Shown here piece by piece: positions 18,774-27,704 of a stretch of 64,000 nucleotides of DNA. The DNA is taken from assembly GCA_943331105.2 (NCBI GenBank), contig CALQKH020000010.1:62001-126000 (forward strand), read 5' to 3'. Made by a program: the position numbers and the translations under genes. The first letter of the stretch is position 1. Each line of letters opens with the position of its first letter. The notes beneath the pieces are model-generated. The model saw nothing but the letters and a program-made list of their open reading frames with translations, was not told where the DNA came from and did no database searches. Source of the stretch: Akkermansia muciniphila. Lineage in GTDB: Bacteria > Pseudomonadota > Gammaproteobacteria > Burkholderiales > Burkholderiaceae_C.

Positions 18774-19451
18774 TTAGCCCCTGCCAGGAATCTTGGCGAG
18801 CAGTTGCTCCACATGGACTTTGGCTTTTTCGAGAGAAGCCATGCTGCCTGTGAGGTACATGCGGCCGCTGGCACCGATCATGCTGCACTCGACCAAGGTC
18901 AGGTCGGGGGCGACTTTTTCGGCTTCGTTGGCCATGTGGGCACCGAACAGTGCCGGAGCCACTTCCATCAGCAACATGTTCTGGCCCGGGAGCACCATGC
19001 TGGCTTGGCGTGTGCGGTTCATCAGCACGGCGTGCTGATCGGTCACGTTTTCCAGAATGTCGCTGTACAGCAGGTGTGGGCGCAGCTGGTCTTCGGCTTT
19101 CGCGCCCATCCAGTCCAAAATGACTTGTCCTGCACGCTGAAGCGCTGCGCTGTCGTTGCTGTGCAACTCCAGGACGCCGAACTGCCGCTCCACAGCCAGG
19201 ATGCCCGGTTCCAGCGTAGGTTCAGCCTTGAGGGCCAGATCGATCACCCGTTGAATGGAAAGTCCGGGCGCGATCTCGACCAGCAGCGCGTTGGTGCCTT
19301 GCATCGCCACGTAGCCACGAGCGCCCAAAGGCGAACTCATCCACGAGGAGAACTGGGGCTGCAAGTCGTTGAGCGTCAGGTAGACCCGAAGCTCAGCTGC
19401 CGGCTTGGTCGGCGGTTTGGCGGGCGCGGTGGCTTTTTTGCTTGTGGCCAT
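18774..19451 (-). CDS. BMC shell protein, tandem-domain BMC-T type (paralogue 1) with K/A/P-rich N-terminal tail
   Basis: Two BMC-like repeats: LLVEIAPGLSIQRVIDLAL...VERQFGVLELHS and LLMEVAPALFGAHMANEAEKVAPDLTLVECSMIGASGRMYLTGS. Confidence 0.85.
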   Translation of the reverse strand: MATSKKATAPAKPPTKPAAELRVYLTLNDLQPQFSSWMSSPLGARGYVAMQGTNALLVEIAPGLSIQRVIDLALKAEPTLEPGILAVERQFGVLELHSNDSAALQRAGQVILDWMGAKAEDQLRPHLLYSDILENVTDQHAVLMNRTRQASMVLPGQNMLLMEVAPALFGAHMANEAEKVAPDLTLVECSMIGASGRMYLTGSMASLEKAKVHVEQLLAKIPGRG

Positions 19452-19480: not shown

Positions 19481-19753
19481 TCATTTGCCGTCGAAGGCTT
19501 TGGACACGTCAGCGTGTGGACGTGGGATGACGTGGCAAGACACCACTTCACCGATTGCGCCTGCGGCTTCTGCACCGGCTTCGGTGGCGGCTTTAACGGC
19601 ACCTACGTCGCCCGAAACGATGATGGCGACGAGACCGCCACCGACTTCTTTTTTGCCAACGATGTTGACGTTGGCGGCTTTGACCATGGCGTCAGCGGCA
19701 GCGAAGGCAGCAACATAACCTTTGGTTTCGATCATTCCGATAGCTTGTGACAT
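19481..19753 (-). CDS. BMC shell hexamer protein (BMC-H; PduA/EutM/CcmK family)
   Basis: [60 protein letters not shown]..., a textbook BMC domain. Confidence 0.97.
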
Positions 19754-19835: not shown

Positions 19836-20105
19836 TCAACGCATCGGTGTGGGGGTGTCGTAGTTGTCGAGTGAAGCAATGATCAAGGCATCGGCCACCA
19901 CACGAGGATGCGCTGGGGCGAACCACCACGCGGCGGGTGCGCCGATGGTGATCATCACGCGCTCGCCAATGCCGCAACCCATGGGGTCGTAGCAGACGAC
20001 CACGTCCTTGGGGTAGTCCAGTTGTACCTCCAGCAATGCGCCAGCGGGCAATTCGGGCAGGCGCTTGCTGGCGACAATGCGGCCGATCACGGTTCCTGTT
20101 TTCAT
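19836..20105 (-). CDS. BMC vertex pentamer protein (BMC-P; EutN/CcmL family)
   Basis: MKTGTVIGRIVASKRLPELPAGALLEVQLD...VVCYDPMGCGIGERVMITIG. Confidence 0.93.
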   Translation of the reverse strand: MKTGTVIGRIVASKRLPELPAGALLEVQLDYPKDVVVCYDPMGCGIGERVMITIGAPAAWWFAPAHPRVVADALIIASLDNYDTPTPMR

Positions 20106-21064
20106 GTTTTGCTTCCTCGGTCAATGGTGATGCCGCGCTTGCGCAGGGCCTCTTTGCCCAAAGGGGTCAAGACCGCCTTGGGGTGGATGCGAACGGTTTT
20201 GACGCTGGCTGGCAAGGTTTTGAGCAGCTTCTCGCCAATCACGCCTTTGAGCTCAGGTACGGATTCGCTCGCCTTGTGCGCCTGCAGGTCGCAACGCTCG
20301 TCTTTGCATTCACAGGCTTTGCCTTCTTTGCAAGACGGGCAGCAAGCGGCCGGGTCGATGGCGGTGGTGGCGGCCATGGCCGAGGCACCGCCGGATGAAC
20401 CACCAGTAGCACCACCTGATGCCGCCACGGCTTTCACCGCCGCTTCGTCCACACGCATGTCAAAACGCAGCAAACCCGATTGCGCCGCTTGCAACAAGGC
20501 CGGGCTGGCGGCCAGGCGCTTGAACAGGTCGGTCAGCGCGGCGGCTTGCGCGGCCGTGCCCACACGCAAGGGCACCACCACGCCGATGGGACTGGCAGTG
20601 GCCTTGTTGGGTGTTGTTGGCTTGGGCATGCCCACTTGCTTCCAGTAAGCGTCTTTGCGGGCGATCAGGCCATTGCGAATTTGGTAGACATCGGTGCCGT
20701 CATAGGTGCCGGTCTGGCCACCGGGCAGCGGCACGGACACTTTGTAGTTTTGCACCACGGTCTGGCCCAGCACGTTCATGTGCGAGTCCGAAAACTTGGG
20801 GCCAGTGGGGCTGGCAAAGCGTTCTTTCAAAAATGCCAAGCAGGCTTCGCGGCCGTTGAGCACGCGCGAATCGGGCAGGATCCAGACCACATCGGGCGCA
20901 AAGCAGGCCACGATGGCCTCGGCGCTCATGGTCTCGTAACCGGCTTCAAAGCGGCGCATCAAAGCAGCCACAGACGCGTCAGCCGCCGGGGCTGGGCTGG
21001 ACGCAGCGCCCAAAGCTTTTCGCACCTGCATGCGAATTTGCTCGCGCAAGGCGTCTGTGCTCAT
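20102..21064 (-). CDS. BMC-associated multidomain protein: N-terminal encapsulation-peptide-like helix, SnoaL-like (NTF2-fold) domain, Cys-rich segment, C-terminal EutT-like LTPxxxExLxxRGI tail
   Basis: MSTDALREQIRMQVRKALGAASSPAPAA + RRFEAGYETMSAEAIVACFAPDVVWILPDSRVLNGREAC... + CCPSCKEGKACECKDERC + VLTPLGKEALRKRGITI; 4-nt overlaps with both neighbours. Confidence 0.75.
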   Translation of the reverse strand: MSTDALREQIRMQVRKALGAASSPAPAADASVAALMRRFEAGYETMSAEAIVACFAPDVVWILPDSRVLNGREACLAFLKERFASPTGPKFSDSHMNVLGQTVVQNYKVSVPLPGGQTGTYDGTDVYQIRNGLIARKDAYWKQVGMPKPTTPNKATASPIGVVVPLRVGTAAQAAALTDLFKRLAASPALLQAAQSGLLRFDMRVDEAAVKAVAASGGATGGSSGGASAMAATTAIDPAACCPSCKEGKACECKDERCDLQAHKASESVPELKGVIGEKLLKTLPASVKTVRIHPKAVLTPLGKEALRKRGITIDRGSKT

Positions 21065-21675
21065 GCAGCACCTCCTGCGTCGCGGATCACAGCCTCGGCC
21101 ACTGCCGCTGCAGCACGCACGTCCGACGCATTGCCCGACAGGTACAAGCGACCAGCTGGGCCCATGAAGCGGCAGTCGATCAGTTTCACGTTGGCGGCCT
21201 TCTCGGCCTCGTTGGCCACCAGCAGCGCATACGACGAGGTGGTCATCTCCATGATGTAGAGCGACTCACCGGGCAAGAGCATGCTGCCGGCCTTGCTGCG
21301 GTTGATCAAAAACGCGTGGTAGCCATCGACCCGGTCGATCACCTTGGAGGCCAGGATCTCGGGCTTGAGCACGCTTTTCTCGCTCACACCCATGGCATCC
21401 AGCACAGCAGCCCCGGCCGACTTGACCGATGAGGAGGACTGGCCGTGGAACTCCAGGTAACCAAACTGCCGCTCAACCACCAGGTTGCCGGGTTTGACAT
21501 CGTCGTGCTTCAAAGCGATGTCGGTCAACCACTCGATGTCCATGCCGGGGGCGACTTCGATCACCATGGCGGCGTCGTTGTGGCGCGGCAAGAAGCCACG
21601 GGCCGTCGAGCCCAGCAAACACATCAACTGTGGCTGCAAGCGGTCCAGAAAAATGTAACTGCGCAAAGTGGACAT
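21061..21675 (-). CDS. BMC shell protein, tandem-domain BMC-T type (paralogue 2)
   Basis: Shares LxxLQPQ...VIEVAPG...VERQFGYLEFHG and VANEAEKAANVKLIDCRFMGPAGRLYLSG with 18774-19451. Confidence 0.87.
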   Translation of the reverse strand: MSTLRSYIFLDRLQPQLMCLLGSTARGFLPRHNDAAMVIEVAPGMDIEWLTDIALKHDDVKPGNLVVERQFGYLEFHGQSSSSVKSAGAAVLDAMGVSEKSVLKPEILASKVIDRVDGYHAFLINRSKAGSMLLPGESLYIMEMTTSSYALLVANEAEKAANVKLIDCRFMGPAGRLYLSGNASDVRAAAAVAEAVIRDAGGAA

Positions 21676-21684
21676 GAGGGGCTT

Positions 21685-23178
21685 TCAGCGAAGGTGTTCG
21701 AGTTCTTCCTGCACGATGCGCAGGACGGTGGCCTGAAGTTCAGGCGTGAGGGAGGACAACTGGCCCGGTGCCGCTTGCAAGGCCGCGCCCGAAGCCATGG
21801 CTCCGGCCCAGCCGCCCGGCAGAGGAAAGGCCACGCGTTTCCAGTTGACCAGAAGCTCGGGGCCGACGTTGCAGTCCACCGAGCTTTTGCCCGCGTAACC
21901 CGTACCAATGGTGAAGGTGTAAGGCAAGCCGGTGTTGGCACCGGTGCTGTCGTGCACCGTGCTGCCATTGACGACCACACGGTAATAGTCGAGCGCCGCG
22001 CCCCAGTACACCGCCTGCTCGGCCGATGCGGAGTGGATACCTGTGGTGTGGCCTGCGCCGCTGTGCTCCAGCATGAGCCGCGCCACGCCAATGCCCTGGT
22101 CAACGTCTTGGACCACCACGCAACCCAAAATGGGCGAGAGCTTTTCCTTGAGCATCACATGGCCAGACTGCGGGTTGGCGATGGGGCAGATCAGCGCCTG
22201 ACAGTCGCGCGGCACTTGCACGCCTGCGGCCTGTGCGATCTCAAACGCGGGGCGACCGACCACTTTGCCATTGAACTTGCCACCAGGAAAGGCGTGGTTC
22301 TGGATTTTCTGCGCCTCTTCTTCGGTGCACACATGCGCACCCTGTCGGGCCAGGGCTTGTTGCATGGGCCCGGCAATTGTTGCGTGCAACAAGAGTACAG
22401 AGGGGGCCTGGCAGGGGCTGCCGTGGTCAAAATTCTTGGCGGTCACAATGGTCTGCGCAGCGGCTTCGATGTCAGCACTGGCATCCACATAAATCGGCAC
22501 ATTGCCCGAACCCACGCCAATGGCGGGGTTGCCCGAGCCGTAAGCCGCACGCACCATGGGCGTGCCACCGGTGGCCAAAATCACGTTGGTGCGGGCGTCG
22601 CGCATCAGCGCCCCTGTCGCCTCGACCGTGGGGCGGGTCAGGATTTGCAGCGCATGGGCCGGGCCACCGGCCTTTTCAATGGCCGCTTGCAGCTCGTTTG
22701 TCACGGCGGTGCAGCAGCCCAAAGCCACCGGGTGCGGCGAGATGACCAGCGCGTTGCGCGTCATCAGGCAAAGAATAGCCTTGAACATGATGGTGGCCAC
22801 CGGCGAGGTGGAGTTGGACAAACCCACCACCACCCCAGCAGGGCGGCCGATCTCAACGATGCGCAGCGCATCGTTGCGGCGCACGCCGCCCAGCGCCACG
22901 TTGTCCCAGGCCGTGGGGGTGAGCGTGCAAGCAATCTGGTTTTTGGCAATCTTGTCGGCCACTTTGCCGATGCGGCTTTCGCGCACGGCCCACTCGGCAT
23001 AAAACTCGGCACGCGGCAGCAAGGCTGCAGCCACTTCTTTGGCCACGCGCTTGGCTTCTTCGGGCGTCCACAGCGCCAGCGTGGCAGCGGCTTGCTGGGC
23101 ACGGCCCAGCAAGTCACGGGCCTCCTGCAAGGCGGCCAGGTCGTGGTCGGCCAGGTCGATCGGGTTGCTGGAACTCAT
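21685..23178 (-). CDS. CoA-acylating-type aldehyde dehydrogenase (AdhE/sulfoacetaldehyde-dehydrogenase-like clade suggested)
   Basis: KNFDHGSPCQAPSV catalytic-Cys region, GAGHTTGIHSAS, NVGPELLVNWKRVAF; 497 aa. Confidence 0.85.
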   Translation of the reverse strand: MSSSNPIDLADHDLAALQEARDLLGRAQQAAATLALWTPEEAKRVAKEVAAALLPRAEFYAEWAVRESRIGKVADKIAKNQIACTLTPTAWDNVALGGVRRNDALRIVEIGRPAGVVVGLSNSTSPVATIMFKAILCLMTRNALVISPHPVALGCCTAVTNELQAAIEKAGGPAHALQILTRPTVEATGALMRDARTNVILATGGTPMVRAAYGSGNPAIGVGSGNVPIYVDASADIEAAAQTIVTAKNFDHGSPCQAPSVLLLHATIAGPMQQALARQGAHVCTEEEAQKIQNHAFPGGKFNGKVVGRPAFEIAQAAGVQVPRDCQALICPIANPQSGHVMLKEKLSPILGCVVVQDVDQGIGVARLMLEHSGAGHTTGIHSASAEQAVYWGAALDYYRVVVNGSTVHDSTGANTGLPYTFTIGTGYAGKSSVDCNVGPELLVNWKRVAFPLPGGWAGAMASGAALQAAPGQLSSLTPELQATVLRIVQEELEHLR

Positions 23179-23197: not shown

Positions 23198-24256
23198 TTA
23201 ACGGCGCGCCGCAGCCGAAGCCACGGCGTTCAGGTCCACGTTTTCCAGCGCGCTGAAGATGGCTTCCACCGCTTGCTGTTCACGCGGGCTGGCCGCTTGC
23301 ATGCGGGTGGTGTCGAGCAACTGGCGCATCACCGAAGGCTGGCCACCTGAAGCTGTACCCGCGGCTGCGCCAGGGTTCAGGGTGGGCACAAAGCTGCCGC
23401 AGGTCATGCGCTGACCGGCGCGGTAGTGCGGCGCGTAGTCAAACACGGCGTAGTGCTGCGTAGCGCAGTTATCCCACATGGCCAAGGAGTCTTTTTCCCA
23501 ACGGAAACGCACCATGAATTCGGGTTTTTTCACCCACTCATAGAGCATGTTCAGTACGGCCTCGGACAGGTCCATGTGCATGCCCAGCAAGCGCTTGGTC
23601 CAGATCGAATTCACAAACAAAATCTTGCGGCCGTTGAAGGGGTGGGTGATCACGGCAGGGTGCGACACCGTGGGCGTGTTTTCGATCATCTTGCACTCTT
23701 GCTCGCTGGCCGTGACCAGCATGCCGCTCTTGATAGAAGCACGTTTGGCAAAGCGCTCGCTGGCGTTGATGCGGCGAAAGTGCCAAGGCAGGTCGTGGTC
23801 GGCCTGCAGGCCTTCAAGCATTTGCTGCATGCCAGGATTGAGCGCATCGTAGGCTGCACCTGCGTGCATCCACATGGTGTCGCCGCCCGATGGGGGCAAG
23901 TCGGTGATGCGCAAAATCGACACCATATTGGGCTTCTTGCGGAAGGTCACGTCGGTGTGCCAGCGGTCGGTCTCGGGTGCTTCGTTGCCCTGGTTGGAAA
24001 TCAGTTGGATTTGGGGGTGACCCTCGATGTGCGGGAAGAATTCGTGCTGTTCCATTTCGCCAAAGTTCTGCCCCAGACGGATGTAGGCTTCGGGCTTCAA
24101 GGCCTGCTTGCGAAAGAACACGACGCCGTGTTGCCACAGCGCTTTTTTGATTTCTTCGTAGACGTCCTCTGAGCGGGTGTTGTTCAAGTCAACGCCGCTG
24201 ATCATGCCGCCGATGGTGGGCGTCATGGGGTCAACTTGAATGTGACGGAAGTTCAT
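23198..24256 (-). CDS. TauD/TfdA family Fe(II)/2-oxoglutarate-dependent dioxygenase with about 57-aa C-terminal extension
   Basis: WHTDVTF (HxD) and CATQHYAVFDYAPHYRAGQRMT (distal His and Arg); GGMISGVDL N-terminus. Confidence 0.93.
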   Translation of the reverse strand: MNFRHIQVDPMTPTIGGMISGVDLNNTRSEDVYEEIKKALWQHGVVFFRKQALKPEAYIRLGQNFGEMEQHEFFPHIEGHPQIQLISNQGNEAPETDRWHTDVTFRKKPNMVSILRITDLPPSGGDTMWMHAGAAYDALNPGMQQMLEGLQADHDLPWHFRRINASERFAKRASIKSGMLVTASEQECKMIENTPTVSHPAVITHPFNGRKILFVNSIWTKRLLGMHMDLSEAVLNMLYEWVKKPEFMVRFRWEKDSLAMWDNCATQHYAVFDYAPHYRAGQRMTCGSFVPTLNPGAAAGTASGGQPSVMRQLLDTTRMQAASPREQQAVEAIFSALENVDLNAVASAAARR

Positions 24257-24289: not shown

Positions 24290-25045
24290 TCATTGCCAGT
24301 GCAGCAAACGGCGTTCAACCCAGTTCATCAGCTTCATGATCAGCACCCCAATGAGCGCCAAATCAAACAGCAGCGACCAGACGCCGTTGACGTTGAATGT
24401 GGATCCCAGATAAGCGAGTTGTTGCCCGAGGCCACGCTCAGAAGCAATGACCTCTGCGCCCACCACGCCCAGCAAGGCGTAGATCACACCGAGGCGCAAT
24501 CCTGAGAAAAGCACCGGCACAGCGCCCGGCAATGTGACCGAGAAAAACATCTGCCGACTGCTGGCCCCCAAAGTGCGCGTGAGCGTCACATGGTCTTGGC
24601 TGACGCCCCGAATACCGGCGACGGTGCTGGACAGCACGATGAAAAACGTCAGCGAAACGCCCAGAGCGATCTTGGATCCGATGCCCAAACCAAACCACAA
24701 AATGAACAACGGGACCAGCGCAATGCGCGGCAGTACATTGAAGGCAGAGATGTAGGGGTCGCAAAAGGCCTCGAACTTGGGCCAAGTGACAAAGGCCAAG
24801 CCCGTGATCATGGCAGCGACCGAGCCAATGGCGAAAGACGCGAACACGGCCAACAGCGTGTAGCCCAGATCGCCCCACAAGCGGGCGTTGGTCAGGTTGT
24901 CTAGGGTGAAAAGGATGATACCGAGTGGACTGCCCATGAAACTCGGATCAACCCACCCGATTCGTGCAGCCCACTCCCACAGCCCCAACACGAAGCACAG
25001 GAACAGCGCATGCAGTGACAGCGTACGAAGTGTTTCACCCCTCAT
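24290..25045 (-). CDS. ABC transporter permease, SsuC/TauC-like
   Basis: BPD_transp_1-type permease; EAA-like region GVSQDHVTLTRTLGASSRQMFFSVTLPGAVPVLFSGLRLG; start MRGETLRT. Confidence 0.88.
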   Translation of the reverse strand: MRGETLRTLSLHALFLCFVLGLWEWAARIGWVDPSFMGSPLGIILFTLDNLTNARLWGDLGYTLLAVFASFAIGSVAAMITGLAFVTWPKFEAFCDPYISAFNVLPRIALVPLFILWFGLGIGSKIALGVSLTFFIVLSSTVAGIRGVSQDHVTLTRTLGASSRQMFFSVTLPGAVPVLFSGLRLGVIYALLGVVGAEVIASERGLGQQLAYLGSTFNVNGVWSLLFDLALIGVLIMKLMNWVERRLLHWQ

Positions 25046-25799
25046 GGTGCACCCACCCTTCTTCGAGATGTTTCCAGACTTGAGCGTAGGTGCGGTGGAA
25101 GTCATCGCTGGTCTGCAGCTCACGGATGGAGCGCGGACGTGCCAGCGGCACCTGCACATCGGCCACGATGCGACCTGGCCTGGAGGACATCACCATCACC
25201 CGGTCGGCCAGCGCGACCGCCTCTGACAAATCGTGCGTCACGAAAAGCACCGTTCGGTTACCGTCCTGACACAGCTGCAGCAACAGGTCCTGCAGCTGCA
25301 GCTTGGTTTGCGCGTCCAGTGCACCAAAGGGCTCATCCATCAGCAGCAAGGGTGAGGGCATGGCAAAGGTGCGGGCCAGGGCCACGCGCTGGCGCATGCC
25401 ATGCGACAACGCCTTGGGCAGGCGGTTTTCGGACCCACTGAGCCCGACCTTCTTGAGCATCAATGCGGCAAGCTCCCGGGCATCCGCGATGGGCATGCCG
25501 CGCACTTTCAGTCCAAAGGCTGCGTTGTCCAGTGCATTGAGCCAGGGAAACAGACTGTCGCGTGCCAACATGTAAGCCACGTTGTGGCTGCCGAGCGCAG
25601 GCTTTTCGCCCGCCACCAGCAGACGTTGACCTGCAGGCAAATCCACCAGCCCCGCGCAAAGGTTGAGCAAGGTGGTCTTGCCACAGCCACTGGGGCCAGC
25701 GAGCGCGACAAACTCCCCGGCCTTGACGTGCAGGTCCACGCCTTGCAATACCAAATGGTTGCCGTCAAAGCTCAGGTCGATGCGCTGTGCGTCGATCAT
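25035..25799 (-). CDS. ABC transporter ATPase, SsuB/TauB-like
   Basis: Walker A GPSGCGKTTLL, Walker B LLLMDEPFGALD, H-loop VTHDLSEA. Confidence 0.92.
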   Translation of the reverse strand: MIDAQRIDLSFDGNHLVLQGVDLHVKAGEFVALAGPSGCGKTTLLNLCAGLVDLPAGQRLLVAGEKPALGSHNVAYMLARDSLFPWLNALDNAAFGLKVRGMPIADARELAALMLKKVGLSGSENRLPKALSHGMRQRVALARTFAMPSPLLLMDEPFGALDAQTKLQLQDLLLQLCQDGNRTVLFVTHDLSEAVALADRVMVMSSRPGRIVADVQVPLARPRSIRELQTSDDFHRTYAQVWKHLEEGWVHHEG

Positions 25800-25833
25800 G
25801 AATGCGCCCTGGAAAAATCGCTGCTGTGGAGCT

Positions 25834-26832
25834 TCAGGGCAGGACTGCAGGCGCCATCTCTACTCTGCCCGGCAAGAGCTTGTTTTCGCTCATGGCATTG
25901 GCCACCGCTTGCATGGCGGGCACGGTGCCACGGGCCTTGAAGTTGCCGATGGAGTTGCGCAGGCTCACCTCAGCGATCTGGTCTGCGTTGGGCAATTGCA
26001 GGGCAAATGTCTTGCGCAGGACCTCCAGTGTCTTGCCGAAGTTGGCCGGGTTGGCAATGAAAGCCTCCGACAATTCCAGCATCCTGCGAATGGCGGCCAC
26101 CGTTTGCGGATTAGCTGCCGCCCATTCGGTCTTCACCGCCATGGCGCCGGCGCCTCCCCGGGTCGCCAGCATGCTCTTGGGACCTTGTCCTTTGCGGGGG
26201 TCTACCACCAGGCGGCAGGCCTTCAGTACTTCGCACATGCCGTCGGCGGGTGGGAAGGTCATGATCAGATCGACTTGGCCGCGCGTGAGCGCAGGAAAGG
26301 CGGTGTCGGGCGCACCCACGGCCACAAAGGTCACGTCGTTCGCGGTCAGGCCCACATCGGCCAGCATGTCGATCACCTGAAATTCAGCGCCGGAGCCGCG
26401 TTGGGTCACGCCGATTTTTTTACCTTTGAATGACTTGACCACACCGGGGTAGCCTTCTTTTTCTGTTTCCAATTCGGTTTTTGCACCTGCAGCCATGAAA
26501 AACACTGGATCGACGAAGCCCGCGGCGATGATGGAAATGGGGGCCTTGCGGGCAACGGCTGCAACCGCCACTTCGGTCGGGCCAAAAAACACTTCGATGT
26601 CACCCGAGAGCATGGTCTGCATGCCCAGTGGCCCACCCGCTATGGTGCGCAGTTCGCAGCGAATGCCCGCTTGCTGGCAAAAGCCTTGCTCTTGGGCCAC
26701 GCGCACCAACAGATTGCCAGTGCCAGGATAGTCTTGGAAACGCACCACGGACTGCGCCATGGCGCTGGCACCGAGGGTCAAGGCGATGGCACCCAGGGTG
26801 GTGCGTACAAGAGTAGGGGCAGAAAATTTCAT
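25834..26832 (-). CDS. ABC transporter substrate-binding protein, SsuA/TauA/NMT1-like
   Basis: Signal peptide MKFSAPTLVRTTLGAIALTLGASAMAQ; GKKIGVTQRGSGAEFQVIDML. Confidence 0.87.
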   Translation of the reverse strand: MKFSAPTLVRTTLGAIALTLGASAMAQSVVRFQDYPGTGNLLVRVAQEQGFCQQAGIRCELRTIAGGPLGMQTMLSGDIEVFFGPTEVAVAAVARKAPISIIAAGFVDPVFFMAAGAKTELETEKEGYPGVVKSFKGKKIGVTQRGSGAEFQVIDMLADVGLTANDVTFVAVGAPDTAFPALTRGQVDLIMTFPPADGMCEVLKACRLVVDPRKGQGPKSMLATRGGAGAMAVKTEWAAANPQTVAAIRRMLELSEAFIANPANFGKTLEVLRKTFALQLPNADQIAEVSLRNSIGNFKARGTVPAMQAVANAMSENKLLPGRVEMAPAVLP

Positions 26833-26857
26833 GTCGTCTCCAATGTGGTTCTTTGAC

Positions 26858-26871
26858 TTGATCACCGTCAA
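26858..26871. promoter_or_regulatory. Candidate Crp/Fnr-family operator TTGATCACCGTCAA
   Basis: One mismatch to the FNR consensus TTGAT-N4-ATCAA; embedded CTTGA-N6-TCAAG perfect inverted repeat; lies in the divergent intergenic region. Confidence 0.4.
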
Positions 26872-26908
26872 GCTCGGTGGACACGATTTAAGTCCCCCCA
26901 GATGTCGC

Positions 26909-26932
26909 AAATTGTTTCTGATGTGACAATTT
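26909..26932. promoter_or_regulatory. Perfect inverted repeat AAATTGT-N10-ACAATTT in divergent promoter region
   Basis: 7-bp perfect palindromic arms between the ABC/BMC operon and the Crp/Fnr regulator. Confidence 0.45.
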
Positions 26933-26975
26933 AGGGGAAAGCACTCAAGATAAACCCATTTCAGCCCGACCAAAC

Positions 26976-27704
26976 ATGCCATCGCCACCCCCGAAAACAC
27001 CGACTAAAGGCCGTACCAACAGCAAGCGCGCTGCTGTTTTCAAAGCGCTGGATGTAGATGAACTGAAGAAAGACTGGGCGCAGAATTCAGGCCTGACAAC
27101 ACGCTCGACCCAAGCCCTTCAAAGTGTGGGCGTGCTGCGTACTTGGAACGATGGCCAGGTCTTGCTCAGCCGGGGCCAACCCACCTCGGCGGCATGGCTG
27201 GTTGTCAGTGGCCGCGTGCGCATCAGCGTGATCACCTCGGAGGGCGAGGAGCAATTGCTGCGCTGGATGTTGCCGGGTGAAATCGCGGGCTTGAGCTCGG
27301 TGTTTGCCCAAGCCACCAATCCGGCTGACATGGTTTCCCATGGCTTGACGCAGGTCTTACACATCGAACGTGCCCGATTGATGGAACTGATTGGGCGCGA
27401 TCCGGTGGTTGCGCTGGACCTTCTTCGCATCCTGGGCCTGCGCATCAACCAACTGTTTGACACCCTTGCTGATCGCGGTATACACAGCCTAGAGCAACGC
27501 GTGTGGGCCACACTGGAGCGAATTGCCAAATTCAACAGCGTGACCGTACCCGACGGTGTGATGCTGCGCGTGAGCCAGTCCGACCTGGCCCAAGCCGCCT
27601 CCGCATCACGCCAGCGCGTCAACCAGCAGCTGAGGCACTTTCAAGATCAGGGCTTGATCCGGCTGGGTTACCGCAACATTGTTTTGCTGCGGCGTAGTTT
27701 TTAG
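26976..27704 (+). CDS. Crp/Fnr family transcriptional regulator, without FNR-type cysteines
   Basis: cNMP-binding fold followed by HTH VSQSDLAQAASASRQRVNQQLRHFQDQGLI; no Cys in the protein. Confidence 0.88.
   Translation: MPSPPPKTPTKGRTNSKRAAVFKALDVDELKKDWAQNSGLTTRSTQALQSVGVLRTWNDGQVLLSRGQPTSAAWLVVSGRVRISVITSEGEEQLLRWMLPGEIAGLSSVFAQATNPADMVSHGLTQVLHIERARLMELIGRDPVVALDLLRILGLRINQLFDTLADRGIHSLEQRVWATLERIAKFNSVTVPDGVMLRVSQSDLAQAASASRQRVNQQLRHFQDQGLIRLGYRNIVLLRRSF

Follow-up and report, generated by a model that had tools for sequence, protein, structure and literature searches.

Results

Gene order and domain layout at the locus

The window, the whole stretch of 64,000 nucleotides that was analysed, contains a minus-strand operon in the order sulfonate-type ABC transporter, TauD-family dioxygenase, aldehyde dehydrogenase (AldDH), BMC-T, SnoaL protein, BMC-P, BMC-H, and second BMC-T, where BMC denotes bacterial microcompartment and the SnoaL protein is a 320-aa protein with a SnoaL-like domain. 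The features are as follows.

24290-27000, minus strand: sulfonate-type ABC transporter
23198-24256, minus strand: TauD-family dioxygenase (PF02668), a candidate for the enzyme that produces the aldehyde, adjoining AldDH in every sufficiently long locus
23201-23404, minus strand: C-terminal extension of the TauD-like protein, a variable linker followed by a conserved helical segment (..EQQAVEAIFSALENVDLNAVA..)
21685-23178, minus strand: AldDH, CoA-acylating type
21688-21750, minus strand: encapsulation-peptide-like C-terminal helix of AldDH, LTPELQATVLRIVQEELEHLR, near-invariant after a variable Ala/Pro/Ser linker (31 sequences)
21061-21675, minus strand: BMC-T shell protein, CcmP-like (PF00936; NF053796 below cut-off)
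20102-21064, minus strand: SnoaL protein ORF, 320 aa, stop codon at 20102-20104
21008-21064, minus strand: encapsulation-peptide-like N-terminal helix of the SnoaL protein, MSTDALREQIRMQVRKALG, aa 1-19
20975-21007, minus strand: variable Ala/Ser/Pro linker, aa 20-30 (pLDDT <50 at aa 16-25)
20636-20974, minus strand: SnoaL_2/NTF2-like domain (PF12680), aa 31-143
20585-20629, minus strand: second variable Pro/Ala linker, aa 146-160
20450-20584, minus strand: middle segment, aa 161-205, common to SnoaL-less BMC proteins (X-family HMM, hhalign)
20276-20359, minus strand: Cys/His cluster in the third linker, CCxxCx5CxC...H, aa 236-263
20105-20263, minus strand: C-terminal TPLAR module, aa 268-320
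19836-20105, minus strand: BMC-P vertex protein (EutN/CcmL; PF03319)
19481-19753, minus strand: BMC-H shell protein (PF00936)
18774-19451, minus strand: second BMC-T shell protein, CcmP-like (NF053796 below cut-off)

The start of the SnoaL protein gene shares 4 bases with the end of the BMC-T gene upstream of it. This operon is the single BMC-domain locus found in the window genome, and the genes inspected near its shell genes included neither a phosphotransacylase nor an alcohol dehydrogenase. CcmP-like BMC-T proteins are known from the HO, MIC3, SPU2, and SPU3 types of BMC (PMC8217296).

The first 19 codons of the SnoaL protein ORF encode, letter for letter, the peptide MSTDALREQIRMQVRKALG to which the preliminary description had drawn attention; AASSPAPAADA and then the SnoaL_2 domain follow, as given there. 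AlphaFold2 predicts a helix at residues 3-17 (pLDDT about 65), a low-confidence stretch at 16-25 (pLDDT <50), and a well-folded NTF2-like domain at 26-143. After the domain come the Pro/Ala linker, a beta-alpha-alpha-beta middle segment of lower confidence, the Cys-rich stretch, which is disordered, and, at the C-terminus, a small unit. SnoaL_2 matches at aa 37-136 (PF12680; E 7e-15, 55.9 bits against a gathering threshold of 27), and the Foldseek matches listed for the domain are NTF2, ketosteroid isomerase, and limonene epoxide hydrolase folds. In the Cys cluster, C241, C242, C245, C251, C253, and H263 are invariant in the 30 sequences compared below amid an otherwise variable linker; the cluster is missing in three SnoaL-less relatives. 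It is a possible metal site.

The helix is conserved and the linker behind it drifts

A scan of 85,488 species genomes returned 38 relatives of the SnoaL protein, and 30 full-length sequences, including those from the window and a sister genome, were aligned. All 30 orthologues come from Limnohabitans, other Comamonadaceae/Burkholderiales, Hydrogenophaga, or a Rhodocyclaceae bin, with Limnohabitans/Comamonadaceae accounting for most of them. In 30/30 genomes, BMC-T and BMC-P are the immediate neighbors of the gene on either side, and the transporter-TauD-AldDH-BMC order is complete in every orthologue locus that is sufficiently long.

Mean identity among the orthologues is 86% in the helix, 44% in the linker, 89% in the SnoaL domain, 92% in the middle segment, and 89% in the C-terminal module. 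The helix and the SnoaL domain both have a dN/dS of 0.13. By contrast, the first linker is flexible and poorly conserved, with a dN/dS of 0.45, indels (7% gapped pair-sites over aa 20-30), and the pLDDT below 50 mentioned above. Because dS is similar in the helix (0.57) and the domain (0.54), the constraint acts on the protein and not on the DNA. Eight helix residues never vary (L6, R7, Q9, I10, R11, Q13, V14, and R15), and variation falls mainly on the polar face, opposite these invariant residues.

Homologues of the SnoaL domain outside BMC loci

According to the preliminary description, finding the same N-terminus on homologues outside BMC loci would refute its proposal. We found six stand-alone SnoaL homologues (Cupriavidus and one gammaproteobacterial bin); they begin 0-4 aa ahead of the domain without the helix, and BMC genes were not detected on either side of their genes. 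The proposal thus withstood this check. FSDS and KDAYWKQ residues are common to these proteins and to the SnoaL domain, which, together with the strong conservation of the domain, argues that the domain still has something to bind or convert. In one operon shared by four Cupriavidus species, about 3 kb separate the stand-alone homologue from a different TauD-family gene, a proximity that hints at, and does not prove, a shared pathway. The BMC-free cluster of Cupriavidus pinatubonensis (L050:5883-10393) contains a TauD-family gene, a tripartite-type receptor, and the stand-alone SnoaL homologue as well as a putative sulfite-exporter-like membrane protein and an amidase-like ORF.

These observations bear on an explanation that we regard as rather unlikely, namely that the SnoaL protein is primarily an encapsulated pathway enzyme of the isomerase, hydrolase, or lyase type and that the remainder of the protein is packaging. 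The strong constraint on the domain, the residues shared with the stand-alone homologues, and the TauD-family neighbor in Cupriavidus all speak for it. However, a related operon, L076, has the same TauD, AldDH, and shell genes and keeps the part outside the SnoaL domain that is described in the next section while lacking the SnoaL domain. The SnoaL domain is therefore an add-on that compartments of this kind can do without. Moreover, an enzyme with packaging leaves the conserved middle and C-terminal modules unexplained.

A family of SnoaL-less proteins encoded before BMC-P

A SnoaL-less counterpart is encoded in the same place by Rhodococcus jostii RHA1, by genome G672 (another class of the same phylum), and by genome G071 (another genus of the same family). 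These proteins, here called X, are 144-155 aa long, begin with a helix, and share the middle segment and the C-terminal ITPLAR module with the SnoaL protein, whereas its SnoaL domain is missing from them. An HMM built from these three proteins recovered every SnoaL protein among 5,913 ORFs, with the window protein matching at E 7e-7 and aligned at 157-317. The next matches were a Rhodococcus BMC-locus ORF, the two PduM proteins (E 0.011), and, in a Methylibium BMC locus, an ORF that overlaps a malate dehydrogenase gene; the first unrelated ORF followed these BMC-locus proteins only at E 1.4. In the window genome, the SnoaL protein was the single match (E=4e-4), and in a 349-genome sample of the phylum only three BMC loci matched at E <= 0.001. 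In hhalign, the probability is 97.9 for the SnoaL protein versus X, 52% for X versus PduM, and 5% for the SnoaL protein versus PduM. With the middle segment, the TPLAR module, and a gene directly between BMC-T and BMC-P, the SnoaL protein shares the features that characterize the X family, and its membership is well supported by these sequence comparisons. Kinship of the X family with PduM is only suggested by them.

PduM itself was considered as the family of the SnoaL protein and ruled out by the model scores and the hhalign value of 5%: none of the 30 orthologues matched the PduM models at E <= 1, and a PduM search of 249 Pseudomonadota genomes gave sub-threshold noise only.

TPLAR-like sequences were also seen at the N-terminus of a malate dehydrogenase-like protein (L082:358-1626, minus strand) and in ORFs of BMC operons that contain malate dehydrogenase (L015:10369-11898 and L061:9621-10004). 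The module looks like a mobile BMC-associated module.

According to the preliminary description, the SnoaL protein is not an incidental neighbor of the shell genes, and the constant position of its gene and the presence of a SnoaL-less counterpart in the same place in other BMC operons bear this out. That helix and gene position reflect coincidence or hitch-hiking in a conserved operon is hardly credible: no point in support of this idea was found, BMC genes flank the gene in all orthologue genomes, and X-family homology extends to BMC operons of other groups, Rhodococcus included.

Spacing and resemblance, rather than amphipathicity, set the helix apart

A BMC encapsulation peptide is an amphipathic helix of about 15-20 residues at a protein terminus, attached to a poorly conserved, flexible linker and missing from homologues that have no association with compartments. 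The predicted helix at residues 3-17 and its invariant apolar stripe (L6, I10, and V14) agree with this definition in length and position. Its hydrophobic moment is ordinary (muH 0.39; shuffle p=0.18), a value reached by 48/195 gene N-termini in a small convenience sample from the window and seven loci that is rich in BMC loci. Amphipathicity was discarded as sole proof of a targeting helix on the basis of the shuffle result. Spacing of the encapsulation-peptide type (h-x3-h-x3-h-x3-h, without Pro/Gly and not membrane-like) occurs in 9/195 termini of this BMC-rich sample, i.e., in PduP, PduD, PduM, PduB, the SnoaL protein, the X protein of L075, two BMC-T domain starts, and PocR. When the majority sequence of the helix was compared with 434 gene termini, the best non-self match was the N-terminus of Escherichia coli PduB (p 0.0006 in a single shuffle test, uncorrected for the 434 comparisons), and the second was the C-terminal helix of AldDH in L075.

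In metabolosome encapsulation peptides, residues of opposite charge are reported to be spaced by one helical repeat (i, i+4) (PMC12339742). The helix of the SnoaL protein does not have this pattern, as positions 7, 11, and 15 are invariantly Arg and E8 is variable; carboxysomal CcmN peptides likewise lack it. With Arg at all three positions, the helix was not assigned to the salt-bridge metabolosome subtype.

The N-terminus of PduE is similar to an encapsulation peptide, is nonfunctional, and packs on its own enzyme (PMC12108088). This precedent and the ordinary hydrophobic moment are consistent with a helix that packs on the SnoaL domain and has no targeting role. We nevertheless consider such packing improbable: the stand-alone SnoaL homologues do without the helix, length and sequence of the linker vary freely between orthologues, and SnoaL-less X proteins likewise begin with a helix of the encapsulation-peptide type.

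Other genes of the operon and of the Rhodococcus locus

The helix LTPELQATVLRIVQEELEHLR is likely the encapsulation peptide of AldDH itself. The extension of the TauD-like protein could be another, which would make TauD the aldehyde-producing core enzyme. It is also present in L076:6168-7331 and absent from the Cupriavidus TauD; the AlphaFold2 model of the TauD-like protein is of very low confidence (mean pLDDT 34) and says nothing on its C-terminal helix. A literature search on taurine dioxygenase and BMCs returned only work on anaerobic sulfonate metabolism.

Two versions of the ABC transporter (24290-27000) occur beside an unchanged BMC core; identity to the transporter in the window is about 46-69% for one and about 78-96% for the other (loci L012, L017, L025, L028, L033, L035, L036, L042, and L045). 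The uptake module appears to be exchanged next to a constant BMC core.

In R. jostii RHA1, an aldehyde dehydrogenase and an aminotransferase (L014, 8443-10005 and 12294-13898) share the C-terminal peptide GDGAVREELRRLIVEEL, and the tagged enzymes adjoin a duplicated set of BMC genes. It seems that this duplication gave the second enzyme the tag.

Discussion

Here, we describe a protein of a BMC operon in which an NTF2-like domain sits between a conserved N-terminal helix and modules shared with SnoaL-less BMC proteins. In the literature collection searched, we found no published description of this protein and no paper that contains both SnoaL and bacterial microcompartment; one review names Limnohabitans and microcompartment once each.

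The N-terminus is very probably a genuine BMC targeting peptide of the encapsulation type. Three lines of evidence lead to this reading. First, the helix is conserved. Second, the linker that follows it drifts. Third, the helix is absent in homologues outside BMC loci. On this basis, the encapsulation peptide proposed in the preliminary description holds by inference, whereas its amphipathicity as such is ordinary. We depart from the further proposal of plain lumenal cargo, comparable to PduP and PduD, for this protein, because outside the SnoaL domain it follows the plan of a BMC assembly/linker protein and because its peptide is closest to that of the structural protein PduB. Without the SnoaL domain, the protein consists of helix, middle segment, and TPLAR module, which matches the X proteins; we, therefore, infer that it belongs among the assembly/linker-type BMC proteins and carries an inserted SnoaL domain. 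In position and plan it resembles PduM without belonging to the PduM family. Altogether, we favor, with a probability of roughly 0.6, a model based on sequence comparison and analogy, in which a modular assembly protein bears these 19 residues as its BMC encapsulation-type peptide and tethers the core to the shell.

Encapsulation peptides can pack with each other (PMC12339742), and they can bind the groove between tiled hexamers (PMC11157265). In the model of a tethering assembly protein, the apolar face of the helix (L6, I10, V14, A17, and L18) would dock in bundles with other encapsulation peptides, e.g., the C-terminal helix of AldDH, or, alternatively, in the groove between tiled BMC-H hexamers. 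R7, R11, and R15, an invariant stripe of basic residues, would favor acidic partners, and the near-invariant, more acidic C-terminal helix of AldDH is a plausible one. The C-terminal module would make a second contact, so that the SnoaL protein would tether the enzyme core to the shell, as reported for PduM and the N-terminus of PduB. The SnoaL domain would thereby be carried inside the compartment, where it may act on an intermediate of the pathway or make the linker multivalent, given that NTF2-like folds often dimerize.

More tentatively, PduM and uncharacterized proteins of other BMC types might belong to a widespread, so far unrecognized class of BMC core-shell linkers that combine a targeting helix, a middle part, and a TPLAR module and are encoded directly ahead of the vertex protein; of this class, the Limnohabitans version would have absorbed an NTF2-like domain in an aerobic compartment supplied with aldehyde by an encapsulated TauD-family 2-oxoglutarate dioxygenase; we see this as possible and on balance doubtful. 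If position and HMM define a linker family in unrelated BMC types, core-shell coupling could be tested as a general property of BMCs. The SnoaL insert would be a naturally occurring case in which a BMC linker carries a foreign folded domain, and the pairing of a basic SnoaL protein helix with a more acidic AldDH helix would test for partner-specific encapsulation peptides.

The closest known systems include the R. jostii RHA1 protein WP_011600239 (145 aa) and its equivalents in L068 and L071, which share the BMC-T/X/BMC-P position, the encapsulation-peptide-like start, the middle segment, and the TPLAR C-terminus with the SnoaL protein but lack its SnoaL domain and Cys cluster. TIGR02536 (eut_hyp) aligns weakly with the C-terminal 62 residues (E 0.016, far below the family cut-off; 21/30 orthologues at E <= 1), and the rest of the SnoaL protein is unrelated to it. 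The encapsulation peptides of PduP and PduD are similar in length to the helix, and the PduP register of L6, I10, L14, and L18 corresponds to L6, I10, V14, and L18. However, PduP has Glu7 in place of the invariant Arg7, and the helix of the SnoaL protein is basic, lacks the PduP-type Glu7-Arg11 salt bridge, and is located on an assembly-type protein.

Functional signal sequences are present in PduM and in the N-terminus of PduB, which couple enzyme core and shell in Salmonella (PMC12108088, PMC9132943). PduM (NF011957/TIGR04493), which is reported to have no known sequence relatives outside Pdu compartments (PMC12108088), is encoded immediately before a vertex protein (pduM-pduN), as is the SnoaL protein, and also begins with a signal helix; its C-terminus (TALARE...NIQLIRQE) resembles the TPLAR...I of the SnoaL protein, but it has no SnoaL domain and its middle differs. 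PduB is a structural protein (PMC12108088), and its signal sequence (aa 1-22), STDALREQIRAQVRTAL, can be set against the helix of the SnoaL protein, SSNELVEQIMAQVIARV. While PduB is a BMC-domain shell protein and the SnoaL protein has no BMC domain, both carry a signal helix on an apparently structural protein.
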